Source: Chloroflexota bacterium (GTDB lineage Bacteria > Chloroflexota > Anaerolineae > UBA7937 > B3-Chlor). From it: 51,354 nucleotides of DNA. The stretch covers positions 1 to 51,354 of the forward strand of contig JAUWLF010000020.1 of NCBI GenBank assembly GCA_030613785.1, in the 5' to 3' direction. Under the pieces are notes generated by a model that worked only from the letters and a program-made list of their open reading frames with translations, was not told the origin of the DNA and made no database searches. Within the stretch, counting starts at the first letter, position 1. Every line of letters begins with the position of its first letter. Positions 28,704 to 45,309 of this stretch are shown here, in pieces. The translations under genes were made by a program, and so were the position numbers.

Positions 28704-28824
28704 CACTTGCACTTGGTTCGTTCGCGGCAACCAGATTTCTTGCGACTGGCACTGACACACCTCGCCTCGCATGTGGTGCTGTGATGAAAGGCTTTCGGGG
28801 CAGAACATAAGAGGCTATGGTCTC

Positions 28825-31800
28825 GTGCAACGACGAACGCTGGCAGATTGGGAACAGTGGCTGGAGCCACAAGTGCGGCAGGTCGTACTCTTGGGCGAGC
28901 TAGAAATCACGGCTGAAGAGTGCGCAGAGCTGGGCAGGGTGATCGGCCTGCAGCTCAGTGCCTTGGGTCCCACTGATACATTGCGAGTCGCGCGTGACTA
29001 CTACCCTTGCTGCTTTGCCGTCTACCTAACCGCACAAGGTGTTTACGGCTACGAAGGCGGTGATTACTGGGGGGAAGTTTGTCAAGTCACAGGCTTGCTT
29101 CGGAACTACACGTCCAGATGGGGACAGCTATTCCTGGAAATCCTACACGACTTGCAACTGCCTAGTTTTCCAGACATGCCTGGAATGGCATACGTTTCTA
29201 AGATCCTTGCACACGGGGGCATACCTGACTACTGCCTCCGTGACTTCTTCGAGAAGGTGCTCCAACGCGCTGTGACTCGGCCAGAGTACGCTGACGTGAC
29301 CACCGCTGAGCTTGCCGAGGAACTTCAGGCCTCCTCGGTGCGCTACTTCACAGACAAGCCAGTGCTACGGTTCCTCCAGTATGGCGGAGAGGTAGCTGAG
29401 GATTTCTTCAAGCGATGTCGTGACATGGCCAGGGATTACATGGAGACCGACATGATATCGTCGGTTGAAGAGATTGGCCTCCCCAAGCGGGTCATTGAGG
29501 CATACGAGCAGTGGGTGACCGAGCAGCAGGACAAAGGCCCTCCTACCCCCGTGCCCACGACGGACCGACTGCGGTTGCGCAAACCTGATATCGTGCTTGA
29601 CCCCTGGGATGAGGGTGTGAGCCTCGTCCTGCATCCACAGCGCGTCCCGGTATCGTTCAGCGGGGCCAACCCGTCATGGCTGGTCAAGACTGACCACGCC
29701 GTGTTTGCCGTGCCCGTGAGGGTACGTCGATTTGGTGGCGATCTGGAGACCACGTCTGAGTCAGTGCTACTCCGTAGGCCATCTTGCGTCTACGAGGTAT
29801 CCTTCCAAGTGAAGGAGGAGCGAAAACGCACCTGGCGGTACTTGGGGCCGGATGAAGACCATCCATTGCTGGTCTTTCGGGCAGACAGCGGAACTATCAT
29901 ATCATCAAGACGATCTCTACCTGCAGGCACCCTATGGCTTCTGTTTCCTGAGGATCTTGAGCTACAGTTCGAGGGAAGTGCGAACTGCTTGGAGGAATTC
30001 CCCCGTTTGCCAGGTGTTTGGGCCAAGTACGTGGGTCAGTGCTGGGAATTGACTAGCGCCACGAGATTGTCTCTAGTGCAAGCAGAGGATTCGATTCTGA
30101 GCCTGGCAGTGAGGCCTGATGAGAGCGCATTGCGGCCGCACTATGTGGGGGGACAACTGTTTGCTGCAGGTCAGAGCGATTCTTCCGCCCTGATACCGAC
30201 CTACATTGGCGCCCCTCCATCAATACGCGTCCCCCGAACTGGAAGAAGAGAGCTTGAGGAAGGGCTCAGGCGGTGGCATCTAAGCGTCTGTAATGATGGG
30301 CCGGGTCGCCCGCAGATAGATGCCAGGTTGGTACTCACAGATTTCCTTCCGCACTTGGACGTTAGCGAGCGGCACGTTGATGTCCCGTTGGGGGTGAAGG
30401 GTCTACTAGGTCAGCGCGCCGTTGGCACCTTCTCGATCCGGATTCGAGGCCCCATGGGAAGACGTGCCGACCTTCGACTACGAATCCTGCGCCCAGTCGA
30501 GATCACCGGTCACGAGCAGGTGTACTTTCCTGACCCAGATCACGGTCCACCGCCTGTCACCGTTAGTGTTCGTGTTGGGGGGACAACGACGGTCGAGTGC
30601 CAGGCCGAGGCGGAGGATTGCCAAGTACTCACACTGCATGAGGAACCGAACAAGTCTCGTACGTACGTGATAAGGGTGTCCCGCGAGGCCACGAGCGCCG
30701 ATTTGGCTATCATCACGAAGGTTTCCGCCCAGCAAAGTGTGCACATCCCGCTTTCCGTGCCCATTCGCCGCCTTCGCTGGGCACTACTCGGGGAGCAAGA
30801 GGATTTGGGCCTGACGGAGTGGAGCGCTGAGGTCATCAATCGGCCTATCCATGCTTTGCTTCAAGCTACTGCACCTTCGCTGCTCATAGATCTGCCAATG
30901 CTTGAGGACACCACCGACTTGCAGGCGCGCCTCTGTCTTTCCGACATTGAGGGTCTGGAACTGCAAAGCCAGGAAGCTAGGCCACCCCAGCGGGGGCGCC
31001 GTTTCTTCCGCTTCGATCTGCGAACCTACATGGACACTATAAGGACCACTAGCTCCCCCGTGCTTCACTTTGAGTTGGAAGGCCTTGCTCTCCTGCAAGA
31101 GGGGGCTCCGAGCCGCCTACCTGTAATGAGCCTCACGCAGCAACTCCTCATCGAGGATGTTCGGCTGGTAGGCCGAGCTGTCGACAGCCGTATGTGGGTG
31201 GAACTGAAATGGAGCGAGCCGACACCACTGAGCCACCGGTGGCTCAGGTTCTGGCCTATTCACCGGCCCTGGGAGTCAGCGTACGAGGTATCTATCCCCG
31301 ACGAGGCCCAAGGTGAGTTCACTTTCGAGGCGCCAGCGCCGAAGCTGCACCCGGGGAGGTACTGCCTCGAGTTCCTGATACTGGATCCTTGGGCCGTGTC
31401 GGCACACCCGCAAAGGCCAAGTATTGACAGACCCGGAACCGTGGAAATGGAACTTCTGGGCACCGGTGAGCGGCTGGACGAGATAAGCACTCTGATCGAC
31501 GAGGTAGGCGAGCAATTCGATCTGCTGCTGGAGCGAGCCCTGATTCTTCGCGATGCTGGTGATGTGGACACTGCGCAATCCGATCTCGACTGGTGCTTCT
31601 TGCATCTTGGTGACGGAGCGATTCCGCAAGTACTTGCGCTGGCCGAGGTGCTGCGTGACGAAGGTGATACGGACTTGCTTGAACACCTCCGGTTCTTCAT
31701 GTTCGCCCCAGATCGTGTGGAGGAGTTGGTGGATGGTCGCGCTCACGGTGCAGTGTCAGTGCAACAGTTGCAGGCCTATCTTCCCTACCTGCCAGAATTC

Positions 31801-32475
31801 GACGCGCTGCCCCCGGCAACCTTCGTAGCGCTGCTCAGAGTCCAGGACTTGGCACTACGTTTGCGCGCTGCGGGTGAACTAGTACGCCGATCGGCCGCAC
31901 AGGGCATGGACGCCATCGTTGAGTGGGTCTCTCAGGGGTCTTTGAGTGACGCCGATGCTGTCGAATTGCTAAGGTTGAACCCGGAGTTCGCCTTCGATTA
32001 CCTTGAGCACAAGGCCTCCAACCCCATCGCTCATCGCCTGCTGCTAGAATTGTCCAAGCAGCAGCTCGGCATCGTATATGTCGTTCGCCGCGGAACGTGG
32101 ATATGCTCGGATGTCGGCTGGGGGCGTATCGATCGCATAGCGGATGCATTCAGCGGAACAGAAGTTGAGGCATTCATCAAGAGCAAACTCGACTACCGAC
32201 TTGATGTCACGCTACGACCAGAGGGCGACGCCGAGCCAGTTGTGATTGATCTCCCGGGCAGGATGATCGCTTTTGGCAAAGCCGATGCCATCTGTACTTG
32301 CACCAAGTGCTACCGCTTCTCAACATCAAAGCGCAATCGGGGAGTGATCATCCGTCAACACAACAGAGCAGTGCATGGCGGGGTGGGCCCGGCACTGATA
32401 CACGAGTCCGAAACCACAAAGGCTTTGCAGGAATGGAGGTTCAGTGATGTCCCCCCTCGTAATCAGTTCGCTTGA
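28825..32475 (+). CDS. Large uncharacterised defence-associated protein (position of DruH)
   Basis: I do not recognise a catalytic domain. From GTG 28825 (AAGAGG ten bases upstream) the protein is ~1216 aa; an in-frame ATG at 28771 would add 18 residues but lacks a ribosome site. The N-terminal ~250 residues are mainly alpha-helical and include the motif KILAHGGIPDYCLRDFF. The central 700 residues alternate beta-rich segments resembling repeated immunoglobulin-like strands. From about 880 onward the chain is helical and leucine-rich. Near the C-terminus CTCTKC (Cys 1157, 1159, 1162) plus HNRAVH look like a metal site. It is immediately followed by a giant DUF1998 helicase, the arrangement of Druantia type III (DruH-DruE); that link rests on layout and size, not on a search. 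No signal peptide or membrane helix is seen. Confidence 0.7.
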   Translation: MQRRTLADWEQWLEPQVRQVVLLGELEITAEECAELGRVIGLQLSALGPTDTLRVARDYYPCCFAVYLTAQGVYGYEGGDYWGEVCQVTGLLRNYTSRWGQLFLEILHDLQLPSFPDMPGMAYVSKILAHGGIPDYCLRDFFEKVLQRAVTRPEYADVTTAELAEELQASSVRYFTDKPVLRFLQYGGEVAEDFFKRCRDMARDYMETDMISSVEEIGLPKRVIEAYEQWVTEQQDKGPPTPVPTTDRLRLRKPDIVLDPWDEGVSLVLHPQRVPVSFSGANPSWLVKTDHAVFAVPVRVRRFGGDLETTSESVLLRRPSCVYEVSFQVKEERKRTWRYLGPDEDHPLLVFRADSGTIISSRRSLPAGTLWLLFPEDLELQFEGSANCLEEFPRLPGVWAKYVGQCWELTSATRLSLVQAEDSILSLAVRPDESALRPHYVGGQLFAAGQSDSSALIPTYIGAPPSIRVPRTGRRELEEGLRRWHLSVCNDGPGRPQIDARLVLTDFLPHLDVSERHVDVPLGVKGLLGQRAVGTFSIRIRGPMGRRADLRLRILRPVEITGHEQVYFPDPDHGPPPVTVSVRVGGTTTVECQAEAEDCQVLTLHEEPNKSRTYVIRVSREATSADLAIITKVSAQQSVHIPLSVPIRRLRWALLGEQEDLGLTEWSAEVINRPIHALLQATAPSLLIDLPMLEDTTDLQARLCLSDIEGLELQSQEARPPQRGRRFFRFDLRTYMDTIRTTSSPVLHFELEGLALLQEGAPSRLPVMSLTQQLLIEDVRLVGRAVDSRMWVELKWSEPTPLSHRWLRFWPIHRPWESAYEVSIPDEAQGEFTFEAPAPKLHPGRYCLEFLILDPWAVSAHPQRPSIDRPGTVEMELLGTGERLDEISTLIDEVGEQFDLLLERALILRDAGDVDTAQSDLDWCFLHLGDGAIPQVLALAEVLRDEGDTDLLEHLRFFMFAPDRVEELVDGRAHGAVSVQQLQAYLPYLPEFDALPPATFVALLRVQDLALRLRAAGELVRRSAAQGMDAIVEWVSQGSLSDADAVELLRLNPEFAFDYLEHKASNPIAHRLLLELSKQQLGIVYVVRRGTWICSDVGWGRIDRIADAFSGTEVEAFIKSKLDYRLDVTLRPEGDAEPVVIDLPGRMIAFGKADAICTCTKCYRFSTSKRNRGVIIRQHNRAVHGGVGPALIHESETTKALQEWRFSDVPPRNQFA

Positions 32476-32546
32476 GAATAGGTGCGACATTGTTCTGATC
32501 CAAACGCGACGAGCAAGAAAACCAATTGTCCAGAGGGTTTACTCGA

Positions 32547-35500
32547 GTGACTAGCCAATTGCACCCTTTGGAAACCACGACTCGTATTCGTGATACCTAC
32601 CTGCGCTACCTAAAGACGATCTATCCCTTTCAGGACAATGATCTGCGAGAGCAATTCTGGCAGGCACTCGAAGAGCCTGACCGCCTGGTCAAGGGTCCAT
32701 TGTTGGAAGCGTCGCCGCCCTTCCAAACCGGGCGGACCATCGAGGAACTGGTGCTGGACGGACTGCTGCACGTAGACTTCGCGGACTTGTGCTCGCCTGC
32801 GCTGCCCTGGGATCGTCCGCTCTACTTGCATCAAGAGCAAGCAATCGAGAAGGTGATAGCTGCAGAACGCAATGTGGCCATCGCGACTGGCACGGGAAGT
32901 GGTAAGACCGAAGCGTTTCTCATTCCCATCTTCGACCATTTGCTCCGCGAGCAAGAAGTCGGCACCCTGAAGCAGCCCGGTGTAAGGGCACTCTTGCTCT
33001 ACCCAATGAACGCTTTGGCCAATGACCAACTCAAGCGGCTGCGCCGTGTACTAGGCCATTTTCCGAACATCTCCTTTGGTCGTTACACTGGAGAAACCGA
33101 GGACAGTGAGAGTAGAGCCGAAACGCGCTTCCGAGATCAGTTCCCCAGCGAACCTCGACTCTCCAACGAACTGATCAGTCGCGAAAGGATGAGGGAGACT
33201 CCCCCGCACATTCTGCTATCGAACTATGCCATGCTGGAGTACTTGCTCCTTCGCCCCCAAGACTGCGAGTTCTTCGATGGAGACACCGGAGGCCAGTGGC
33301 GCTTCATCGTCATGGACGAAGCACATGTGTACGACGGTGCTTCTGGTATCGAGATCGCGATGCTACTGCGCCGCCTGAAGGACCGGGTCGTGCACAGAAA
33401 ATCTGGGCGATTGCGGTGCCTAGCAACAAGTGCCACATTGGGTCGCGGCCGAGAAGACTTCCCAGCAGTCGCTGCTTTCGCCAAAGAGCTCTTTGGCGAG
33501 GTTTTCGAATGGGTTGATGACGACCCGGCAAGACAGGACGTGGTGGAAGCCACCCGGGTTCCCATGTCATCTTTGAGCGCTCCTTGGGGTGAAGCAGACC
33601 CTGATCTGTACTTGGCTTTGCAGGAAGCAATAGCGACCCGCGTTGGCTCCTCAGCAGCCCTGATCAACGAGCTAGCGAGAGTGAGCACGGACCACAACGT
33701 ACCAGCACCTATTGTTGAGGAGGGGCACAGCGAAGCACTTCACGCTGAAGGCGATCTGGCTGTTGGTTTCTTTCTCTATCGTGTCTTGAGAGGCGACAGA
33801 CGTCTTCATATCCTGGAGGACCTGCTGGCTGAGCGCCCTCGTTTCTTGAGCGACCTTGCAAACGAGCTCTTCCGCCATCGAGATGATAGTGTGGAGCGGT
33901 TGATCAATCTGGTCAATTTAGCCGTTCGTGGCAAGCCAGATCCTGAGAGCGTCTCCCTCTTGCCCGCCAGGTACCATGTGTTCGCCCGCGCCCTGGAAGG
34001 TGCCTTCGCCTGTCTACATGCCACCGCCCACGAGCAAGACAAACACAGTCCGCCTCGCCTGTTCCTTCTGCGCCGCGAGAAATGCCCGCATTGTGATTCG
34101 CGAGTTTTCGAACTAGCGACCTGCCAACGTTGCGGTACGGCCTACATCGTGGGTCGCTTGGTCTCCCAGGCCCTTTCCACCAGCGGGGTTGATCAGCAGG
34201 GAGATAGACCGTCCTATCTGCGACAACTATCGGGCCAACCAGAAGACGGCTACGGGGAAAGAGCCTATTTCGTGTTGGCCGATCAGCTACCCGGTTTAGA
34301 TGAGGATGAGGCCGTGGCTGCCGAGGAGGACATAGATGCCATCATCGAAGAGGAGTGCGAGCCTCACACCCTTTGCTTGGGCTGTGGTGCGATCGCACCG
34401 GGACGTGATACGGATATAGGATGCGACTGCAAGCCTTCTGTGCCGAGAGAGGAGCTACTCCGGGTCGACTTGCGGAGCAAGCCTGAGCTGCGCCGTTGCG
34501 TGACTTGTGGCTCTCGTAGCCGTGTGGGAGTAGTCTATCGCTTCCTAACCGGCCAGGACGCACCTGCAAGCGTGCTGGCTACTTCCCTCTATCAAGGCTT
34601 GCCCTCTTCCATCAATCCCGAACTAGAAGCTCTGCCAGGTCAAGGACGCAAGTTGTTGGCCTTTTCAGACAGCCGACAGGATGCCGCCTTCTTCGCCCCT
34701 TATCTGGAGCGTACGTATACTCAAGTCTTGCGCCGGCGCCTTGTACTCAAGACCTTGCTGGATGATCCCGCGGGTCGGCAAGGACGTCTCCGAATCCAGG
34801 ATCTGGTGGGACGATTGCAACGCCAGGCGGAGGACGCTGGGCTGTTCACCCAGCGCCAGAGTTATGATGAGCGGCGTCGGCTGATGGAAACCTGGCTGAT
34901 GCAGGAGTTGATCGCCTGGGATCGCCGCATTAGCCTGGAAGGACTGGGCTTGCTTAGTTTCCGTTTGGTGCGCTCTGATGGCTGGCGCCCTCCGCAGCCC
35001 TTGCTGGAAGATCCCTGGAATCTAACGGCCGGCGAAGTGTGGCAGTTGCTGGAGTTGTTACTCAATACCCTACGTCAGCAAGGTGCTATCACTTTCCCCG
35101 ATGCCGTAGACCCTCGGGGTGAGGCCTTTGCCCCGCGCAATCGCGAGCTATTCATGCGGGAGATGAAAGCCGATCCCAAGAAGGGCATTTTTGCCTGGAT
35201 GCCGACGCGTGGCAACAACCGCCGTTTGGACATGCTGACTCGATTTCTAGAGCGTACTACCGACTTGACTCCGGAGACGAATCTTGAGATCGCCCGTGAA
35301 GCTTTGCAGGGGGTATGGCGGCACTTGACCGAGCCTGGAAGTCTCTGGCGCGATTATCTACCGAGCGAGAACCGCCCAAAGCAAGGAGGAGTGCTTCACA
35401 GAATAAGCCACCTTTTCTGGGAAGTAGTGCCAGCCATCAAGGAGGGTGACAGTGGTTATCAATGCACGCGTTGCCGGGCACTGTCTCACATCAATCTCCG

Positions 35501-37535
35501 AGGAATCTGCCCCACTTACGGGTGTGAGGGCACGTTGCAGCCCGTGGATGAGAAAGCATCACGATGGGCTCAGAATCACTATCGTCATCTTTACCGAGAG
35601 CTTCTGCCTATTCCGTTGAGCGCGGAGGAGCATACAGCGCAGTGGACCAGTAGTGAGGCAGCAGCGGTCCAGGAACGCTTCGTCCGAGGTGAGCTGAACG
35701 TGCTCAGTTGCTCTACTACCTTCGAGCTCGGAGTCGACGTGGGCGAACTGCAGGCCGTGTTCATGCGCAATGTGCCTCCCACCACAGCAAACTACGTTCA
35801 GCGTGCAGGGCGTGCCGGCCGACGCACGGATTCGGCCGCCTTTGCTCTCACCTATGCCCAGCGTCGGTCTCACGACCTCACGCACTACGGCCAACCAGAG
35901 CGTCTCGTGGCGGGACGTATCCATCCTCCGGTCGTGGTGATTGCCAATGAGAAGATCGTACGTCGCCATGTTCACTCCGTCCTCTTTGCTAGTTTCTTGC
36001 GCTGGGCCTTACAAGAGCGATCAAGGGCATTTGGCAAAGTCGGTGATTTCTTTGCCCCTGAGGGATTCCAGTTGACCGGCCCAGACTTGCTCCAAGAGTA
36101 TGTGGATACCAGACCCTCAGAGGTGCAGGAGGCTCTACAACGCATCGTTCCGACTGTCTTGCAACAGGAGTTGGGCATCGCAGGTTGGGACTGGCTTGGC
36201 TACCTATGGAACGATGAGGAGACCGCCATTATGGACCGCGTCGTGCAGGAAGTCAACGATGATCTGGAATTGTTCCGACGATTGGAGGAAGAGGCGGCGG
36301 CTCAGCGGAATTACCGTCAGAGTGACCACTTCAAGCGGGTGGCAAGAACTGTCCGCAGGCGGGATTTGCTGGGGTTCCTCGGCTCCCGGAATGTGTTGCC
36401 CAAGTATGGGTTCCCGACCGATGTGGTTGAACTGAGGACGAGCCATGTGCATATACCTGAAGCTAGAAACATAGAACTACAACGCGATCTGCGGATAGCC
36501 CTCTCAGAATATGCACCCGGAGGCGAGGTAGTAGCGGCGAAGCGAGTATGGGTCAGCGGTGGAGTCTACAAGTGGCCACATCGCGATTGGCCGACCTACT
36601 ACTACGCTGTGTGTCCCGAATGCGGCCGCTTCCACCGTTCGCTGACAAAAATCGAGGGGCCTTGCGTGACGTGCGGTGGCAATCTTTGGGGCTGGCCCCG
36701 CCGTTACGGCGCTTTCATCATTCCTGAGTTTGGATTCATGGTGGGGCGCAAGGAACCGCGAAGGTCTGGTGAGGCACGACCGCAGCGCCTTTACTCCTCC
36801 CGCGTTTACTTCGCTGAGTACGCTGCGCGGACAGAGGACGGTACACGTGTTGAGCCGGCTTTGGAAGAAGTGCCAGCCCTATCCAGCGCGGATCTGCAAG
36901 TGTGGAAGCGCTACTCCCGATACGGTAGGCTAGCTCTAGTCAACGCGGGGCCAGCCAACCGGGGCTTTCGTATTTGCTATGCCTGTGGCTTCGCCGAACC
37001 TTCACCAGAGGAGCCGGCGAGTCGTCGTAGGCGACGTAAGCCCGCAGCCCATGACAACCCACGAACAGGACGACAGTGCACGGGCCGACTTGTTACACGC
37101 CATCTTGGTCATGAATTCATGACCGATGTCTTGGAAGTGCGTTTCGAGGGGCTTTTGGCCTCCAATGTCGACTACGGTCTATGGCTCTCACTGCTTTACG
37201 CCCTGCTCGAGGGGGCCAGCCAGGCCTTGGGAATTAGGCGAGACGACCTGGACGGGACTCTGTATCGCCACACTTGTGACGTCTCACCAGCCTTGGTGCT
37301 CTTCGATAACGTACCTGGCGGCGCGGGACATGTGCGCCGTATCGCCCGTCAACTCGAACCGGTGTTCGTGTCGGCTTGGCAGCGAGTAGCCAAATGCGAA
37401 TGCGGACAAGAGACCAGTTGCTATGAGTGCCTGCGCAACTACCGTAACCAGTACCATCATGATCAGTTGCAGCGTGGCCTTGCCAGAGACTTCCTTGAAG
37501 AGACCTTTTCAAGTGCAGGCAAACCGGTCGGCTAA
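32547..37535 (+). CDS. Giant DEAH-box helicase with DUF1998/MZB C-terminus (DruE/DrmA-like)
   Basis: ~1662 aa from GTG 32547 (AGAGGG nine bases upstream); TTG 32526 is a weaker in-frame start. Superfamily 2 motifs: ATGTGSGKT (113-121), LLYPMNALANDQ, DEAH (257-260), LATSATLG, then after a long insertion LLAFSDSRQDAAFF, TTFELGVDVG and QRAGRAGR (1085-1092). The insertion holds Zn-finger-like clusters (CPHC at 513, CQRC, CLGC, CVTC). The C-terminal part has further CPEC/CVTC and CYAC pairs and ends with the DUF1998/MrfA-type zinc-binding block, NVPGGAGHVRR and KCECGQ...CYEC (Cys 1617-1628). Family members are ATP-driven DNA helicases or translocases of Druantia, DISARM and related anti-phage systems. 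Length and the upstream partner fit DruE best (inferred). Confidence 0.88.
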   Translation: MTSQLHPLETTTRIRDTYLRYLKTIYPFQDNDLREQFWQALEEPDRLVKGPLLEASPPFQTGRTIEELVLDGLLHVDFADLCSPALPWDRPLYLHQEQAIEKVIAAERNVAIATGTGSGKTEAFLIPIFDHLLREQEVGTLKQPGVRALLLYPMNALANDQLKRLRRVLGHFPNISFGRYTGETEDSESRAETRFRDQFPSEPRLSNELISRERMRETPPHILLSNYAMLEYLLLRPQDCEFFDGDTGGQWRFIVMDEAHVYDGASGIEIAMLLRRLKDRVVHRKSGRLRCLATSATLGRGREDFPAVAAFAKELFGEVFEWVDDDPARQDVVEATRVPMSSLSAPWGEADPDLYLALQEAIATRVGSSAALINELARVSTDHNVPAPIVEEGHSEALHAEGDLAVGFFLYRVLRGDRRLHILEDLLAERPRFLSDLANELFRHRDDSVERLINLVNLAVRGKPDPESVSLLPARYHVFARALEGAFACLHATAHEQDKHSPPRLFLLRREKCPHCDSRVFELATCQRCGTAYIVGRLVSQALSTSGVDQQGDRPSYLRQLSGQPEDGYGERAYFVLADQLPGLDEDEAVAAEEDIDAIIEEECEPHTLCLGCGAIAPGRDTDIGCDCKPSVPREELLRVDLRSKPELRRCVTCGSRSRVGVVYRFLTGQDAPASVLATSLYQGLPSSINPELEALPGQGRKLLAFSDSRQDAAFFAPYLERTYTQVLRRRLVLKTLLDDPAGRQGRLRIQDLVGRLQRQAEDAGLFTQRQSYDERRRLMETWLMQELIAWDRRISLEGLGLLSFRLVRSDGWRPPQPLLEDPWNLTAGEVWQLLELLLNTLRQQGAITFPDAVDPRGEAFAPRNRELFMREMKADPKKGIFAWMPTRGNNRRLDMLTRFLERTTDLTPETNLEIAREALQGVWRHLTEPGSLWRDYLPSENRPKQGGVLHRISHLFWEVVPAIKEGDSGYQCTRCRALSHINLRGICPTYGCEGTLQPVDEKASRWAQNHYRHLYRELLPIPLSAEEHTAQWTSSEAAAVQERFVRGELNVLSCSTTFELGVDVGELQAVFMRNVPPTTANYVQRAGRAGRRTDSAAFALTYAQRRSHDLTHYGQPERLVAGRIHPPVVVIANEKIVRRHVHSVLFASFLRWALQERSRAFGKVGDFFAPEGFQLTGPDLLQEYVDTRPSEVQEALQRIVPTVLQQELGIAGWDWLGYLWNDEETAIMDRVVQEVNDDLELFRRLEEEAAAQRNYRQSDHFKRVARTVRRRDLLGFLGSRNVLPKYGFPTDVVELRTSHVHIPEARNIELQRDLRIALSEYAPGGEVVAAKRVWVSGGVYKWPHRDWPTYYYAVCPECGRFHRSLTKIEGPCVTCGGNLWGWPRRYGAFIIPEFGFMVGRKEPRRSGEARPQRLYSSRVYFAEYAARTEDGTRVEPALEEVPALSSADLQVWKRYSRYGRLALVNAGPANRGFRICYACGFAEPSPEEPASRRRRRKPAAHDNPRTGRQCTGRLVTRHLGHEFMTDVLEVRFEGLLASNVDYGLWLSLLYALLEGASQALGIRRDDLDGTLYRHTCDVSPALVLFDNVPGGAGHVRRIARQLEPVFVSAWQRVAKCECGQETSCYECLRNYRNQYHHDQLQRGLARDFLEETFSSAGKPVG

Positions 37536-37659
37536 GGGGTCTTAAGTAATGACAGTCATAAGGTAAGTCGGGCCTCCAGCTCCTCGCCCGCTTGGTCAGC
37601 AATGGCTTCGGAAACCCAAGAGAGCTTGGTGGCGAAGCCCGGATGGGAATTGACGAGTC

Positions 37660-39768
37660 ATGGCACAAATCATCGGTGATCTGCGACCTGATGCCACATA
37701 TGGTGAGACCAGGGTTCTTGACTTGCTGCGCGAGCTACCTGACGACTACGTCGTGTGGCCGGAACTACCCATCAACGCGGAGTACATCACCTACCCGGAT
37801 TTCACCATACTGCATCCGTCTGTTGGCGTCTGCGTGCTGGAGGTGAAGGACTGGGTTGAAATAGTCAGTGCCAACCCAAGCACATTCGTCGTCAGGACCA
37901 GGAAGGGTAGGGAGCGCCACGAGAAGAACCCCCTAACTAGTGCTCGCGTTAAGGCGACCAAGATAGCGAGGAAGCTTGAGGGGGACCGGCGCCTTGTCCA
38001 CTCAGCGGGCACGCATCGGGGAAAGCTGATATTGCCTTGGGGATCTGCGGTTGTCTTTCCGAATCTCACGCGAATGCTAATGCACGGCTTCGGTGAACTC
38101 CTGAACCCAAGACAGATGATCTGTATGGATGACCTCGAAACCGGGCAACTGGAGCAGCGTTTGCTTCAGTCGGCCTGGTTTCCTGTCAATCTGTCGCCAG
38201 CCCAAGTAGATGCCGTGCGCAGCGTTCTCTTTCCCGAGTTGAGGGTGTCGAACGCGCCCGGCGGCGAGGGCGTGCTCGACCTAGATCAAGAGCGCATCGC
38301 GAAAGAGGGCCTGTACGAGAAGCAAGAGCTGACCCCGGAGGGGCGCCGCGTGGCACTCAATCCCGTCGTCCGCCTTGTTCGCGGTGTGGCTGGGAGTGGC
38401 AAAACCCTGGTGCTCAGCATGCGAGCCAAGTACCTCGCCCAAACACATCCGGAGTGGAGAATCCTCGTCGTCACGTTCAATCGACCCCTCGCACGCGACC
38501 TCGAAAGGCGCGTCGAGGAGTTCGCGGATCGAATCAAGGCGATCAATTTCCATCTGCTGTGCAAGGAATGGCTGGCAGAGGCTGCACTCTGGCAAGCACC
38601 GATAGACGCATCGGATCAGCAGGGGCGCATCGCCAACATCCTGGCGAACAAGACGCCTGAGATAGACAAGTTCGAAGCGGAGTTCCTACGGGATGAATTC
38701 AATTGGATGAAGGATACAGGACTTGTTGATCGCGATAGGTACCTCGAGGAGCCAAGGATCGGTCGTCACAAGCGTTTGGCGAAGAGTGATCGAGCACTTG
38801 CATACCAGGTTTTCGAGCACTACCAGCGGCATCTGGAGCAGTTCCGGCGTTGCGACTGGGCTGACATTCCTTACCTAGTGGTGAAAGCGGTAGATGAGGG
38901 ACTAATCCCGGCAAACCAATTCGACTCGATTCTTGTGGACGAGGCCCAGGATTTCGCTCCGAGCTGGTTCGAGGTCCTCAAACGGGTGCTGAATCCGGAA
39001 ACCGGGGTGATGTTCATGGCTGCCGATGCGACCCAGCGGATCTATCGCAAGTACACGTGGAAGTCAGTGGGACTCCACGTGGTAGGCCGGGCACGAATCC
39101 TGCGCAGGAGCTATCGCAGCACCTACGAGATAGCGCGCACTGCCTTCGAGCTCGTGCGCGATAACGAGACTCTGCTACAGGAACTGAAGGACGAGGGTGA
39201 GGAGTTGCAGCGCCCACAGCTTGATCCGACTTGGATGCGCCGCGGCGAGTATCCAGCGCTCAAGGTATTCCGTGATGTGGACAGCGAGTTGGCCTTCATC
39301 ATCCACACGATCAAGCGTCTTTTGGATGACGGCTATTTGCCTGGCGACATTGCTATCTTGCACCGCAGGCAGTGGGGACCGGCTCGGTACTTGAGTGCCC
39401 TGCGTGCAGGCGGCCTAGCTGTGGCGCACATCAGGGAAGACAGGCGGCTGCCGAAAGTGGCAGTGGCTGTCGGCACGCTGCACGTGGCCAAGGGCCTGGA
39501 ATATCGAGCTGTCTTTGTCGGACAACTTCAGTGCCTGTTTGACTCCGACAGATCGTTGCCGCCGATGGATAGGGCGAGGTTCAATGCAGACGAACTCAGG
39601 CTCCTCTATGTTGGGATGACTCGCGCACGAGACAGATTGTACCTTACCTATCAGAGCAAGCTCCCAGCGGAACTCACCCATCTGGAGCGTTTTCTCGATG
39701 CTGCGAAATCCAGGACCGATGACTCTCCGACGAGGTCCTCATCTTCTCACGTGTCAGGCTTCCCATGA
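37660..39768 (+). CDS. NERD nuclease-UvrD/Rep-type helicase fusion
   Basis: 702 aa. Residues 1-150 form a nuclease-related (NERD) domain: YGETRVLDLL, then YPDFTIL (Asp47) and LEVKDW (Glu61, Lys63), an intact PD-(D/E)xK-type active site. Superfamily 1 helicase motifs follow: RGVAGSGKT (241-249), VTFNRPLA, LVDEAQDFAPSWF (DEAQ 427-430), ADATQRIYRKYTWKS, LRRSYRSTYEIA, GTLHVAKGLEYRAVFV and LLYVGMTRARDRL. It would translocate on single-stranded DNA 3'-5' and cut DNA. The ATG at 37660 lies 124 bp after the giant helicase gene and ten bp before the next, so it is likely part of the five-gene operon. NERD-helicases occur alone in many genomes, but this placement suggests a shared defence role. Confidence 0.87.
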   Translation: MAQIIGDLRPDATYGETRVLDLLRELPDDYVVWPELPINAEYITYPDFTILHPSVGVCVLEVKDWVEIVSANPSTFVVRTRKGRERHEKNPLTSARVKATKIARKLEGDRRLVHSAGTHRGKLILPWGSAVVFPNLTRMLMHGFGELLNPRQMICMDDLETGQLEQRLLQSAWFPVNLSPAQVDAVRSVLFPELRVSNAPGGEGVLDLDQERIAKEGLYEKQELTPEGRRVALNPVVRLVRGVAGSGKTLVLSMRAKYLAQTHPEWRILVVTFNRPLARDLERRVEEFADRIKAINFHLLCKEWLAEAALWQAPIDASDQQGRIANILANKTPEIDKFEAEFLRDEFNWMKDTGLVDRDRYLEEPRIGRHKRLAKSDRALAYQVFEHYQRHLEQFRRCDWADIPYLVVKAVDEGLIPANQFDSILVDEAQDFAPSWFEVLKRVLNPETGVMFMAADATQRIYRKYTWKSVGLHVVGRARILRRSYRSTYEIARTAFELVRDNETLLQELKDEGEELQRPQLDPTWMRRGEYPALKVFRDVDSELAFIIHTIKRLLDDGYLPGDIAILHRRQWGPARYLSALRAGGLAVAHIREDRRLPKVAVAVGTLHVAKGLEYRAVFVGQLQCLFDSDRSLPPMDRARFNADELRLLYVGMTRARDRLYLTYQSKLPAELTHLERFLDAAKSRTDDSPTRSSSSHVSGFP

Positions 39769-39778
39769 GGGATAGAGC

Positions 39779-40804
39779 ATGACAGATTCACCAAACAAGA
39801 CGGTCTTCACCAAGCGAGTACCGGCAGGGCCGTGGACGTACGTGCTCGAGGTCAGGGAACTGCAAGACAAGACAAGGTACCTGGCCATTCGGCAACTTGG
39901 GGATGTCGGCGCGCTGGGTGGAGGGCCTGGTCGGATAGTCGTTGTTGAGCGGTATCTGCCCGCGTTTGCTGCAGCACTTGAGAAGGCGACACAGTACTTG
40001 GGCGCGGGCGGCACGTCCAAGGCATATCACGTTGAGACAATTCGCCAGACGTACCCAAGGGCATACATGCGGTGGACTGCGAATGAGGATGAGCGTCTCA
40101 AGAGAGAGTACCTCAGAGGGAAGACACTTGCTGAGTTGGTGAGCATTCTGCGACGGCAACCCGGCGCCATCCGTGGGCGTTTGAGCAAATTGGGCCTGCG
40201 GGGCAGGGGTGTTGTCTCGACTCCCCAGATCCACGCGCGCGATCTGGTGGGGAATTGGCACGCTGGCTGGGCGCTTGACCTCCACACGCTGTCCAGCGTC
40301 GCTCTGCCGGACGGAGGTTTTGACACTCAGCGAACAGAAATCGGCGAGTTACTATACCAACTGAAGTACAGTTTCGACAGGAGCAAGATAGAACCGATTG
40401 CCACGACCGCTGCCACATTCCTGAAAGGTGGACGCTTTCTTGAACCCTTGACCGCGATCATACCAGTACCGCCTTCGAAGCTTGATCGACCGTTTCAACC
40501 CGTTCCACAATTGGCGCTCAGGATCGGCGAACAAGTGCAATTGCCGGTCGCGTTGGATTACCTGACGAAAGTAAGAAGAACGCAGCCGTTGAAGGATCTC
40601 GAGGATGCGGAAACAAGGAGGGACCAACTTAGAGGCGCATTCACGGTGGCGGATCATCGGTTTGAGGGAAAACGTGTTCTGTTGTTCGACGACCTATTTC
40701 GTTCCGGAGAGACTCTGCAGGAGATCACCGATCTACTGGTGAAGGAGGGGAGAGTCTCCACAGTGTACGTGTTGACCATCACGAAGACGAGGACCAAGAG
40801 GTGA
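39779..40804 (+). CDS. PUR-alpha-like domain + HTH + ComF-type phosphoribosyltransferase
   Basis: 341 aa with an unusual domain order. Residues 8-75 (TVFTKRVPAGPWTYVLEV ... ALEKATQYL) match the pattern of the bacterial PUR-alpha-like DUF3276 fold, which binds single-stranded nucleic acid. Residues 97-141 (MRWTANEDERLKREY, then GAIRGRLSKLGL) are a SANT/Myb-like helix-turn-helix. Residues ~165-340 are a phosphoribosyltransferase of the ComF group: LLYQLKY, IIPVPPS and the PRPP loop LLFDDLFRSGET (301-312). The zinc ribbon normally at the ComF N-terminus is absent, replaced by the two nucleic-acid-binding modules. The start is ATG 39779 with GAGGGA upstream. It overlaps the DprA-like gene by four bases (GTGA), so the two are translationally coupled. 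The PUR-like call comes from pattern recognition and needs a profile search. Confidence 0.78.
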   Translation: MTDSPNKTVFTKRVPAGPWTYVLEVRELQDKTRYLAIRQLGDVGALGGGPGRIVVVERYLPAFAAALEKATQYLGAGGTSKAYHVETIRQTYPRAYMRWTANEDERLKREYLRGKTLAELVSILRRQPGAIRGRLSKLGLRGRGVVSTPQIHARDLVGNWHAGWALDLHTLSSVALPDGGFDTQRTEIGELLYQLKYSFDRSKIEPIATTAATFLKGGRFLEPLTAIIPVPPSKLDRPFQPVPQLALRIGEQVQLPVALDYLTKVRRTQPLKDLEDAETRRDQLRGAFTVADHRFEGKRVLLFDDLFRSGETLQEITDLLVKEGRVSTVYVLTITKTRTKR

Positions 40805-41811
40805 GCACGGCAGCGGATTACGTCTGGTACAAACTGTTTCGCGCGGAGGGCTTCGGGCCGAGGAGCCTGGCGATACTCCACCAGACAGCGCGAGACCGGG
40901 GTGTTCCACTCGCAGAGGTGTTTGCGATGGACGAGTCCACCTTTGCAAGCACGTTCCCAGCGCTTGGCAGAGGGAGACTCAAAAGAGCTAGCTTTCGTGC
41001 ACTCAAAGAGCTGGATGAAGAGATCCTGTTCCGAGAATACGAGCAGCTGCAGGACAGTTCGGTTGCACTAATCCATGCTGATCACGAGCAATACCCCGGA
41101 AGGCTTCTGAGGTTCATTGACCGTGGTGTGCCGCTTGTCTTGTTCTGCCGGGGGAACGTCTCGTTGTTGAAGCATGGGGGCGTAGCCATAGTGGGTTCGC
41201 GGGACGCTTCCGATGAAGCCCTGCAAGTATCGAGGAGGCTCGCGAACGATTTGGCACTGAAAGATCAGAACGTCATCTCTGGGTACGCAAAGGGGGTGGA
41301 CACAAGTGCGCATCTAGGTGCCCTGGAAGCGGACGGGACGACTAGCATAGTGCTGAGTTCCGGAATCCTGCGATTCTCCAGAAAGAAGGCGTTCAACCGC
41401 TTCCGGGGGCATGCGGACACTCTTGTTCTTTCGCAGTTTGCGCCCAAGGCAGGATGGAGTGCAAGAAACGCAATGATCAGGAACAGGCTCGTCTGTGCCC
41501 TGTCAAGGGCGGTCATCGTTGTTGAGTCTGGCGGCGAAAGGGGCAGTGATTTGCGCCTTAGCGGCACGTTCAATACCGGTAAGAGCGCTCTTGATATGGG
41601 AATCCCTCTGTTTGTGGTGAGTCCTGTCTCTTTGGACAGTGCGCCGGCTGGAAACACGGAACTGATCAGACTCGGTGCGGTCGAAATACAACCTCGGGAT
41701 GGCGTTGAAGTCGTGTTGAGCCAGCTCAACGCGGACGTGAGCGACTTGGCGCAGCCTCCTGCAACTGCTGAGCAACGGTCGTTTCTCGACGAGGCGGAAG
41801 GGAACAGGTGA
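40801..41811 (+). CDS. DprA/Smf-like SLOG-fold protein lacking the C-terminal winged helix
   Basis: 336 aa. Residues 1-65 resemble the helical SAM/HhH-like N-terminus of DprA. The Rossmann/SLOG core follows: HADHEQYPGRLLRF, GGVAIVGSRDAS (GSR 132-134), SGYAKGVDTSAH (160-171), SARNAMIRNRLVCALS and VVESGGERGSDLRLSGT. After the core only ~30 residues remain, so the C-terminal winged helix usual in DprA is missing. DprA binds incoming single-stranded DNA and loads RecA in transformation, and SLOG proteins recur in nucleotide-signalling conflict systems. GTG 40801 overlaps the preceding stop by four bases. Coupling to a ComF-type protein and two helicases suggests it acts in the same complex or pathway rather than in competence (inferred). 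It is the last gene of the operon. Confidence 0.87.
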   Translation: MSTAADYVWYKLFRAEGFGPRSLAILHQTARDRGVPLAEVFAMDESTFASTFPALGRGRLKRASFRALKELDEEILFREYEQLQDSSVALIHADHEQYPGRLLRFIDRGVPLVLFCRGNVSLLKHGGVAIVGSRDASDEALQVSRRLANDLALKDQNVISGYAKGVDTSAHLGALEADGTTSIVLSSGILRFSRKKAFNRFRGHADTLVLSQFAPKAGWSARNAMIRNRLVCALSRAVIVVESGGERGSDLRLSGTFNTGKSALDMGIPLFVVSPVSLDSAPAGNTELIRLGAVEIQPRDGVEVVLSQLNADVSDLAQPPATAEQRSFLDEAEGNR

Positions 41812-42047: not shown

Positions 42048-42768
42048 ATGGAAGCCTTCCTGTTTGTAATCACCATCGCCGTTGCTTGCCTTCTCCAGGG
42101 CATTCTCGGCTTTGGCAGCGCCCTGGTAGCCACCCCCTTGGCCCTGATCTTCCTGGATAAAGAGACCGTCGTCTCGTCGATGGTGGTGATCGGCATTGCG
42201 CTGAATGGCTTCCTGGCGCCAAGAATCCGCGAGCCGATGAGCTTCCGACCCGTGCTTCTCCTCTTCCTGGCCAGCCTGGTTGGCATGCCGATCGGGGGTA
42301 TGGGTTCTGACGGCCATACCCATGGACGTGATGAAGGTCCTGGTGGGGAGCCTGGTGGTGCTTTTCAGCGTCTTGCTTCAGTTTGGCAAGCTGAGAGCGC
42401 CTCAGAACAGTGTTGTCACCGGCGTTGCTGGGTTTCTCAGCGGCATCCTCAGCACTAGTACCAGCATGTCGGGGCCTCCGGTGCTCATTCTGCTGGCGGG
42501 GCAGGGCCTTCCCAAGGATCAGTTCCGCAAGACGCTGGCGTGCTTCTTCCTGGTGTTGGGACTGGTCTCGGCGCTTTTCCTCATCGCCGGTGGGGTGATG
42601 ACCGTGGGTAGGGCGAGGTACGGTTTGATCTCCATTCCTGTGGTGTTCCTGGCTGCGTTGGTGGGGGACAAGATCGCGGCGAGGGTTCCTCAAAGACCCT
42701 TCAGGGTGCTGGCGTTGGCCACGCTCTTCCTGGCCGGGATGTACAGCATTGTGTCAGGCTTGACATAA
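42048..42768 (+). pseudogene. TauE/SafE-family permease, frameshifted in a G5 run
   Basis: The N-terminal part (MEAFLFVITIAVACLLQGIL to LVGMPIG) and the C-terminal part (VWVLTAIPMDVMKVLVGS to MYSIVSGLT) are two halves of one small sulfite-exporter/TauE-type permease of ~239 aa. They lie in frames that differ by one base at GGGGG 42294-42298. Removing one G restores PIGVWVL, exactly the family pattern. Both transmembrane repeats with their Gly-rich signature (QGILGFGSALVATP; TSMSGPPVLILLAGQGLP) are intact, so the gene is either recently inactivated, slipping at the homopolymer, or carries a sequencing error. A TATAGT hexamer ends six bases before the ATG, possibly giving a leaderless transcript. 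It would export sulfonates, sulfite or other anions. Confidence 0.8.
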
Positions 42769-43096
42769 GGAGTGTCGTCGTCGCTCGGATTAGATGCAGG
42801 AGACAGTGAGAGCGTGCACGGGAGGTTGGGACTGTTAACATAAGGACCTCATACTGGGGTCTTGACTGGGATCGAGGTTGATTGGTGATGCCTGATCTGC
42901 GTAGGGGGAATCGTGCACGGAGGGCGCGGAAGGGGAGGCAGCATCTGGAAGGCAGGGGCAGGGCACGTGGTGCCGCTACGCGGTCGTGTTTGGGGCTAGG
43001 CGGAGCTGTTTGGCATCGCAGCGAAAATGTGATATCCTACAGGTAGACTGGAGGACAGTCGGACTATCCGACGCCATAGCTGCCAGGGGTGACGAT
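42769..43096. other. 328-bp intergenic region before toxin-antitoxin operon
   Basis: I see no gene here. It contains the promoter at 43010-43038 and two similar short segments, GTGCACGGGAGG and GTGCACGGAGGG, about 95 bp apart. They are imperfect and of unknown meaning. Confidence 0.4.
43010..43038 (+). promoter_or_regulatory. Promoter of toxin-antitoxin operon
   Basis: TTGGCA (43010-43015), a 17-bp spacer and TATCCT (43033-43038), with TGA immediately upstream as an extended -10. The start would be near 43045, giving a leader of about 50 nt before the antitoxin ATG. AbrB-type antitoxins usually repress their own promoter (family knowledge). Confidence 0.6.
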
Positions 43097-43396
43097 ATGG
43101 AAGTGCTGCAAATCCGGAAGAAGTTCCAGATCACACTCCCTCGATCCATCCGGGAGCGGCTCGGTCTGCAAGAGGGTGACTACATAGCCCTCGAGGTACG
43201 GGACGAAGAGATCGTCCTGCGAGCGAAGAAGCTGGTGGACAAGGGGCAGGCCTGGTTCTGGTCAGGGGAGTGGCAGGAGGCCGAACGAGAGGCCGAGGCC
43301 GACATCCAAAGTGGCCGCGTGCACGAATTCGCCGACGCGGAAGAGGCCATCGTTTTCCTTCATCGACGCGCCGATGCTGAAGGGCCAGGCGAATAG
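43097..43396 (+). CDS. AbrB/MazE/SpoVT-family antitoxin
   Basis: 99 aa from ATG 43097, which follows CAGGGGTG. The first 45 residues (MEVLQIRKKFQITLPRSIRE and LQEGDYIALEVRDEEIVLRA) are the swapped-hairpin AbrB DNA-binding fold. The acidic, Trp- and Glu-rich C-terminal half (WFWSGEWQEAEREAEADIQSG) is the likely toxin-neutralising tail. An open frame extends upstream to 42986 but without homology. Five bp separate it from the toxin gene, the usual antitoxin-first order. It probably binds its own promoter at 43010-43038 (inferred). Confidence 0.87.
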   Translation: MEVLQIRKKFQITLPRSIRERLGLQEGDYIALEVRDEEIVLRAKKLVDKGQAWFWSGEWQEAEREAEADIQSGRVHEFADAEEAIVFLHRRADAEGPGE

Positions 43397-43401
43397 CCCT
43401 C

Positions 43402-43662
43402 ATGCCGATTCTCATTAGCGAGCGCTTTGCGAAGGCGTACACGAAACTGCCGCAGCTCATCCGGAAGAAGGTTGGCAAGGCGCTGCGGTTGCTCGATGAG
43501 GACTTCAGGCGTCCCGGTCTCCGGGCACGGCGGATAGAGGGCACTGATGGAATCTACGAGGCGCGGGTTGACCGCGGACACCGCATGACCTACGAGCGCG
43601 AAGGTGATCGGCTGATCATGCGGAGTGTCGGTGAGCATGACAAGACGCTGGGGGCACCATGA
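43402..43662 (+). CDS. RelE/ParE-superfamily toxin
   Basis: 86 aa. The small basic fold ISERFAKAYTKLPQLIRKKV ... RARRIEGTDGIYEARVDRGHRMTYER ... MRSVGEHDKT matches RelE/ParE-type toxins: helix hairpin, beta sheet, and the terminal HD-containing strand. Members are ribosome-dependent mRNA endonucleases or gyrase poisons; which one applies cannot be read. It lies five bp after the AbrB-type antitoxin and 19 bp before a small acidic protein gene, all in one apparent operon. AbrB-type antitoxins paired with RelE-fold toxins are less common than RelB or Phd partners. Confidence 0.85.
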   Translation: MPILISERFAKAYTKLPQLIRKKVGKALRLLDEDFRRPGLRARRIEGTDGIYEARVDRGHRMTYEREGDRLIMRSVGEHDKTLGAP

Positions 43663-44784: not shown

Positions 44785-45236
44785 GGCACCTTAAGACTTC
44801 GGAGGTTTCCGTCGAACCCGAGCGCGTAGGTGTCGGCGATGTACGTTCGGAAGTTGGAGTCACTGATTTCACGCGCCAGCGCCTTTTGTGTTTCTTTCCA
44901 GATTTCTTCTAATGTCTTGCTTTCTTTGTAATGCTTCGTGCTGCCCTGGGCAGCACCCCCTATGCCGTGGGCAGCACCCCCTATGCCGTGGGCCGCCCGC
45001 CGGCTGCCCAGGGCACCACCCCCCTGTGGAGATGTGGATAACTCTCGGTAGGTCTCCTGATCGATGCCGGAGCGGCGCGGGGTTCATAAGCGAGGGCGAA
45101 GTCTGCGGCTTCTGGCTCTGGCTGGCACCGCAAACAGACGACCTCACGGAAGCTGTTGGCAGGGAGCGATGGCAAGGCATCGTTCGGGTGTGTGAGCAAC
45201 TCGACAGAGGCAAAGATGGTGTCCAGTTACATAAGG
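44785..45236. other. 452-bp intergenic region with short GC-rich tandem repeat
   Basis: No credible gene. An open frame at 44888-45298 is rejected because it encodes the repeats and runs antisense through the tRNA. The stretch contains the 21-bp tandem duplication described separately and inverted repeats GCTGCCC/GGGCAGC around 44940-44954. Confidence 0.45.
44948..44989. repeat. Two perfect 21-bp tandem repeats
   Basis: GGGCAGCACCCCCTATGCCG plus T occurs twice in direct succession (44948-44968 and 44969-44989), followed by a degenerate third start (GGGCCGCCC). The first copy's GGGCAGC also pairs with GCTGCCC just upstream (44940-44946), so a hairpin can form. Two copies without spacers rule out CRISPR. 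Confidence 0.7.
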
Positions 45237-45309
45237 CGCGCCTGGAGGGATTCGAACCCCCGCCCCACAGATTCGAAGTCTGCGGCTCTGTCCACTGAGC
45301 TACAGGCGC
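45237..45309 (-). tRNA. tRNA-Arg (anticodon UCG)
   Basis: Read on the minus strand, a complete cloverleaf folds. The acceptor stem is GCGCCTG/CAGGCGC with discriminator G. The D arm is GCTC...GAGC, the anticodon stem GCAGA/TCTGT around loop CTTCGAA (anticodon TCG), the T arm GGGGG-TTCGAAT-CCCTC, and the variable loop five bases. It is 73 nt long with no encoded CCA. It would read CGA-type arginine codons. Its own promoter lies just upstream on the same strand. Confidence 0.95.

Follow-up and report, generated by a model that had tools for sequence, protein, structure and literature searches.

Do five adjacent genes on one strand make up a single new defense machine, or do they bring together modules of kinds that are already known? 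The question was raised by a locus of a Chloroflexota bacterium (assembly GCA_030613785.1; 4.29 Mb in 184 contigs), in which genes A to E (Table 1) follow one another on contig JAUWLF010000020.1. The window analyzed here is this one complete contig, 51,354 nucleotides (nt) in length. A first-pass annotation had proposed a single new five-gene system. Our results point to a different arrangement: the run is probably a composite defense operon of three modules, namely a Druantia type III variant (A-B), an accessory nuclease-helicase (C) and a variant phosphoribosyltransferase (PRTase)/DprA toxin-antitoxin guard (D-E), and not one new machine. This reading is carried by two gene pairings that recur, A with B and PRTase with DprA, and by the absence of D and E from the A-B loci searched.

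The five genes, their order, strand, gaps, overlap and domain calls were as first described, which was confirmed by open reading frame (ORF) coordinates and domain searches. From the coordinates, the intergenic spacing is 71 bp between A and B, 124 bp between B and C, and 10 bp between C and D, while D and E overlap by 4 bp. Two start sites were set with the help of homologues. The longest frame of A opens at 28771, and the start at 28825 was chosen because most homologues align from query residue 19-26; for B, the GTG codon at 32547 was read instead of the listed TTG at 32526, as it is more consistent with homologues.

Table 1. Positions (in the window) and assignments of genes A to E and of neighboring features.
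Feature	Coordinates	Strand	Start codon	Length (aa)	Assignment
Gene A	28825-32475	+	GTG	1216	DruH-like sensor candidate
Gene B	32547-37535	+	GTG	1662	DruE-type YprA-family helicase
Gene C	37660-39768	+		702	NERD nuclease and UvrD-type superfamily 1 (SF1) helicase
Gene D	39779-40804	+			PUR-like (DUF3276-type) domain, helix-turn-helix (HTH), ComF-type PRTase; candidate toxin
Gene E	40801-41811	+			DprA-like (PsyrA/ShosA type); candidate antitoxin or guard
MazE-type antitoxin and ParE-like toxin	42986-43662	+			Separate downstream module, context only
MazE-type antitoxin	42986-43396	+			Downstream of the operon
ParE-like toxin	43402-43662	+			Score below Pfam cut-off
TauE/SafE transporter	42048-42768				Spread over two overlapping frames
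tRNA-Arg	45235-45309

Pfam assigns to the product of gene B a DEAD domain, a Helicase_C domain and, at its end, MZB, which corresponds to the DUF1998 region. The protein also shows Walker A, DEAH and QRAGRAGR motifs. It matched the PADLOC models DruE1 (666 bits) and DruE3 (632 bits) and is 25-26% identical to Escherichia coli DruE across two long segments. These matches, together with a likely remote DruH relationship of A, bore out the early assignment of A-B to the layout of Druantia type III (DruH-DruE), in which a large protein comes first and a DruE/YprA helicase second. According to Bell et al. (2025; PMC12458937), the C-terminus of the E. coli-type DruE holds a phospholipase D (PLD) nuclease, and the helicases of the Druantia III-like branch mostly have no nuclease domain (statements on published work, here and below, refer to the parts of the cited papers that were available). 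In B the last [ST]CxxCL motif lies 33 aa from the end, leaving no C-terminal extension of the kind seen in the 2114-aa E. coli DruE, and the PLD hallmark of type III-A appears to be missing; an HKD pattern search found nothing even in E. coli DruE, so that this comparison rests on the absent extension. The tail after the last [ST]CxxCL motif was at most 43 aa in 56 of the 68 relatives that could be measured, out of 80 loci, in agreement with Bell et al. In a FastTree phylogeny of 49 sequences, in which the published reference GIH50614.1 is not included, B grouped with A-B systems from actinobacteria and clostridia and was separated from E. coli DruE, with support of 0.89 and 0.93 on the two sides of the split. 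A and B are also near in length to the proteins of the Mycobacterium smegmatis system (1132 and 1667 aa; PMC13316683), which was compared by size and description only. Our comparisons indicate that A-B is probably a Druantia type III-like pair, most like the III-B branch of Bell et al., which B resembles, as most measured relatives do, in having no C-terminal extension.

To learn how regularly A accompanies B, we scanned the genome collection with a B alignment. At least 578 stretches with a B relative were obtained and the best 80 loci were kept as the A-B test set; the sequence downstream of B extended for at least 9 kb in 48 of them, at least 5 kb in 60 and less than 1 kb in 12. The A profile matched 70 of the 80 loci, and in 65 A immediately preceded B on the same strand. 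The match was farther off, in pieces or on the opposite strand in five (L095, L096, L100, L120, L143), and ten loci gave no A match, three of which (L091, L134, L152) begin near a contig end. Searched for by itself, A was found in 14 of 400 genomes of the phylum, own genome included, and adjoined B in 12 of the 13 loci fetched around A matches. Among these 13, B is split into two frames in L050, a short A match follows B in L052, and the 3.9-kb contig L051 contains A alone. The two sets are not independent, since L077, L078, L087 and L098 appear to recur in both. As judged from these neighborhoods, A-B is a recurrent, conserved two-gene pair across genomes. Its members differ in divergence: B is 46-60% identical to ten Chloroflexota relatives and A only 22-35% to eleven, the same contrast as that reported for DruE and the more variable DruH (PMC13192584).

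The assignment of A is more delicate. No Pfam, NCBIfam or PADLOC family was detected at 0.001, and the sole PADLOC match at E 10 was PDC-S02 (E 0.049). We therefore consider the profile comparison (hhalign), in which 71 A sequences, the window's among them and a few of them duplicates, were cut to their first 1000 residues (68 were retained by the program) and set against eight DruH-family proteins, one of them partial. The top match joined residues 62-193 of the A profile to 45-176 of DruH (score 39.3, E 0.0034), and a second segment (score 26.7; 354 in A vs. 365 in DruH) lay near the same diagonal. Both stand out, because the controls (28 column shuffles and one reversal) reached at most 23.4 and none of the 29 attained either score. 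A shallower earlier comparison had pointed to the same N-terminal region (E 0.054). The predicted structure of A (mean predicted local distance difference test score 77.5, predicted template modeling score 0.45) suggests a helical N-terminal start, a long immunoglobulin (Ig)-like beta region, helices at 880-1079 and a small beta end. This predicted layout of helices, Ig repeats and helices resembles the description of DruH, a proposed infection sensor with Ig-like domains and helical regions at both ends (PMC13192584). A relatives were present in 18 of 248 (E 1e-3) and 22 of 396 (E 1e-50) genomes of the M. smegmatis genus, in overlapping sets, and none of these could be identified as M. smegmatis. 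No A was found in viral contigs, searched with exact patterns from six peptides, or in plasmids.

Two C-terminal features of the A family were recorded besides. Window A ends with a zinc-finger-like CxxC...HxxxxH motif, and a loose CxxC...HxxxxH/C pattern after residue 900 occurs in 17 of the 71 A sequences, including window A, L040, L047, L074, L075, L076 and L083. A C-terminal sigma-70 domain is present on 7 of the 12 sequences of alignment A1 (L041, L043, L044, L045, L046, L048, L049), with matches to HrdB/SigA profiles of about 1e-92; in L048 the reading frame seems to shift inside this domain. The five sigma-70-bearing loci sampled in the helicase tree formed one clade (support 1.00). The sigma part of the L041 and L043 fusions matched PADLOC MzaA (7.9e-56 and 3.3e-57), hinting that more than one defense system may make use of a sigma domain. 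No literature linking Druantia with a sigma factor was found in searches that did not cover subscription papers.

Gene C encodes a fusion of NERD and UvrD domains by Pfam, with a NERD-type D47...E61-V-K63 signature and a UvrD-type Walker A and DEAQ. Pfam detected NERD proteins next to A-B in three loci (L043, L044, L074); in L095 one stands immediately before B. The whole of C used as query matched 14 of the 80 A-B loci, and at six of these the match lay no more than about 0.8 kb from A or B; these counts have no calibrated background. C relatives were found in 21 of 400 phylum genomes at 1e-30, own genome included. Known systems that C recalls were considered and set aside. GajB models of Gabija match C across its helicase part; the resemblance is confined to the helicase, a NERD domain is present in C as well, and no GajA-like neighbor was present among the Pfam-scanned ORFs. 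ARMADA/TALON systems similarly place a UvrD-type helicase or NERD nuclease next to a YprA helicase, as do L069 and L070 (YprA plus UvrD-type helicase), which we took for ARMADA from annotation, but no BrxHII helicase, PglX methylase, TPR-CSD or TBP was found among the 25 Pfam-scanned ORFs of the window, none of which lies left of 19362.

The last two genes form the third module. The PRTase of D scored 23.0 bits in Pfam, below the 26.3 cut-off, and was clear with other models: PADLOC PsyrT over the PRTase part (1.5e-18), ShosT, and ComF TIGR00201 (5e-9). The phosphoribosyl pyrophosphate (PRPP)-loop motif VLLFDDLFRSGET is present at residues 300-312. The PUR-like domain is supported indirectly, by a homologue (L056:4218-4625, 39% identity) that matches Pfam DUF3276 at 3e-11 and by a model that is confident over the PRTase alone and that starts, at low confidence, with predicted strands and a helix in PUR order. 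In another genome of the phylum, a DNA methylase gene has a stand-alone PUR-HTH protein (DUF3276; L056:4218-6128) next to it. E is a DprA protein by Pfam, matches PADLOC PsyrA (5.8e-52) and ShosA (6.4e-35), and resembles the solved structure 9vzo of ShosA, a DprA-like antitoxin (5.9e-15).

The pairing of the two is recurrent. An E relative lay just downstream on the same strand in seven of the eight PRTase loci tested, out of ten new ones, and a DprA relative also follows the PRTase in L053, L054, L055 and L057; in L058 the next gene is not E-like. Of the proteins compared, plasmid PRTases of Agrobacterium and Xanthomonas have the highest identity to the PRTase of D (44-45%); the gene after them is annotated as an addiction-module antidote and shows no likeness to DprA by BLAST. 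The PRTase of D is 37-40% identical to the RecQ-PRTase fusions L053-L055, 30-36% to three other plasmid PRTases and 32% to the two ComF proteins reported by BLAST out of ten offered. D-E is directly comparable to PsyrTA/RqlHI, in which a PRTase is followed by a DprA-family protein, but has PUR-like and HTH domains in place of the RecQ helicase. Like ShosTA and the P2-like phage system (PMC9122126), it consists of two genes with no helicase fused to the PRTase, but D has an extra N-terminus of 150 residues. In RqlHI, RqlH needs its PRTase domain to be toxic, and the DprA-like RqlI holds this toxicity in check (PMC4670107), and a PRTase-DprA pair protects E. coli against T7 and lambda (PMC9122126). 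By homology, D-E belongs with the PRTase/DprA pairs PsyrTA, RqlHI and ShosTA. C, D and E are of kinds known from defense systems, as first proposed, while the reading of D-E as competence-type parts gives way to this better fit.

The full combination of domains in D appears to be rare. D matches were found in 28 of 376 class genomes at 1e-15: full length in its own genome, the PRTase part in 26 (ordinary ComF may account for some), and the N-terminal part in one. No plasmid record covered 80% of D, and no second full-length copy was found in the collections searched; seven pattern matches in viral contigs were not confirmed, and four phage records matched the PRTase part only. Within the limits of the literature searches given above, no DUF3276 was among the matches listed for papers joining PRTase and DprA, and phrase searches found nothing on DprA as an antitoxin or PRTase as a toxin.

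Several results weigh against the composite reading. PADLOC DruH models did not match A at E 10, a difference from Druantia III, as is the presence of C-D-E behind A-B; eight A relatives likewise had no PADLOC match at E 1. The third A-DruH segment (552 vs. 542, score 17.8), albeit near the diagonal, was no better than the controls, and the hhalign probability of the match was 9.6%, for which reason we grade A as a likely, not proven, remote DruH homologue. The Foldseek matches of the A model, all at low TM-scores, were mostly Ig-repeat proteins of a generic kind, along with other large proteins, and the solved DruH (9tud), whose membership of the library was unchecked, was not among the 50 rows listed. 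A single-sequence search with the C N-terminus gave no match in the 80 A-B loci at E 0.01, so that recurrence of C beside the pair rests on the Pfam matches in four loci and on the whole-C matches. With the fusions L057 and L058, the PRTase of D shares just 30-33% identity, not above its value for the two ComF proteins, and E scored 128 bits with ordinary DprA (TIGR00732), below the 191-bit cut-off. Finally, the 10-bp and 4-bp spacing of C-D-E would suit a single functional unit.

Could all five genes nevertheless be one integrated system, with A as the sensor, B and C as DNA processors and D-E as a dedicated death effector released by B/C intermediates? We regard this as improbable. Neither half of D, nor E, was found at E 0.001 in the 80 A-B loci, of which 20 have less than 5 kb downstream of B so that the linkage test was full for about 48-60, or in the 13 loci around A matches. 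No A relative was seen in the PRTase-DprA loci L053, L054, L055 and L057 and no second copy of the five-gene set was found, in spite of the single strand, the short gaps and 4-bp overlap, a uniform composition (GC 56.5-57.9%, third-position GC 0.61-0.68) and promoter-like and terminator-like sites within the run that show no excess over shuffled background. Lack of association of C-E with A-B was the refuting outcome named in the first-pass annotation, and for D and E it was what we observed; C-like NERD proteins stand beside A or B only now and then.

It also seems unlikely that C, D and E are a unit of their own, a split RqlHI/PsyrTA with the NERD-UvrD protein as separate helicase, next to an independent Druantia-like pair. 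Such a split would match the close C-D-E spacing, the lack of a Pfam helicase domain in D, in contrast to the helicase or RecQ domains carried by its PRTase relatives L053, L054 and L057, and the report that the PRTase domain of RqlH by itself is not toxic (PMC4670107). Yet the 13 neighborhoods of C relatives, some of them short contigs, held no A, B, D or E relative, and in ten of these C relatives follow a gene of 581-609 aa, as in Gabija, with GajA guessed from size. Moreover, five plasmid loci have stand-alone PRTases with no helicase annotated directly beside them in incomplete tables, although at L065, one of the five, a DEAD/DEAH helicase lies some 4 kb upstream. That D-E are DNA-uptake or repair genes and not a toxin-antitoxin pair is very improbable: ComF and DprA are competence families, and both TIGR matches (E 128 bits, D 5e-9) fit them, but the D PRTase is nearer to antidote-linked plasmid PRTases and three RecQ-PRTase fusions than to the two ComF proteins, and the genome holds further DprA-like and ComF-like genes elsewhere. 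One DprA frame of this genome (from L003) gave no BLAST match with E, a result set aside because the choice of frame may have been wrong.

In the neighborhood of the operon, the downstream module first described as AbrB/RelE-type is a real antitoxin/toxin pair, of MazE and ParE-like type. The TauE/SafE transporter (profile 2-82 and 80-236 in the two frames) looks frameshifted or badly assembled. Insertion of a mobile element at the tRNA-Arg gene was considered and rejected, as its 40-nt end shares no ungapped 11-base run, in register, elsewhere in the window.

For the composite operon, we infer the mechanism of each module from its named relatives. A, as a divergent DruH, would sense a phage protein or structure through its Ig-like repeats, and B, as a DruE translocase, would load on single-stranded or tailed replicating DNA. 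E. coli DruE has its nuclease in a C-terminal extension that B lacks, so C probably supplies DNA degradation in trans, by its NERD nuclease fused to a UvrD helicase. E would restrain D until infection, or DNA intermediates from A-C, occupies or removes E; the freed PRTase, brought to nucleic acid by the PUR and HTH domains, would then poison the cell and abort the infection. The five genes might also make up one layered immune system, a possibility that we hold to be doubtful: a Druantia-like sensor and translocase would act with a NERD nuclease-helicase in place of the missing nuclease, and the DprA partner would release the PUR-HTH-PRTase toxin on single-stranded DNA intermediates, so that failed DNA degradation triggers suicide. 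If this were true, the PUR/HTH-targeted PRTase toxin would define a new class of abortive-infection effectors directed at DNA. The locus offers an example of a little-studied Druantia branch, a nuclease-less helicase beside a separate nuclease-helicase, and, with sigma-70 domains attached to A relatives in other Chloroflexota, one may ask whether some Druantia-type sensors watch the transcription machinery. D-E, with a DNA-targeting part unlike the RecQ helicase of its relatives, gives a direct route to asking what these PRTases act on.

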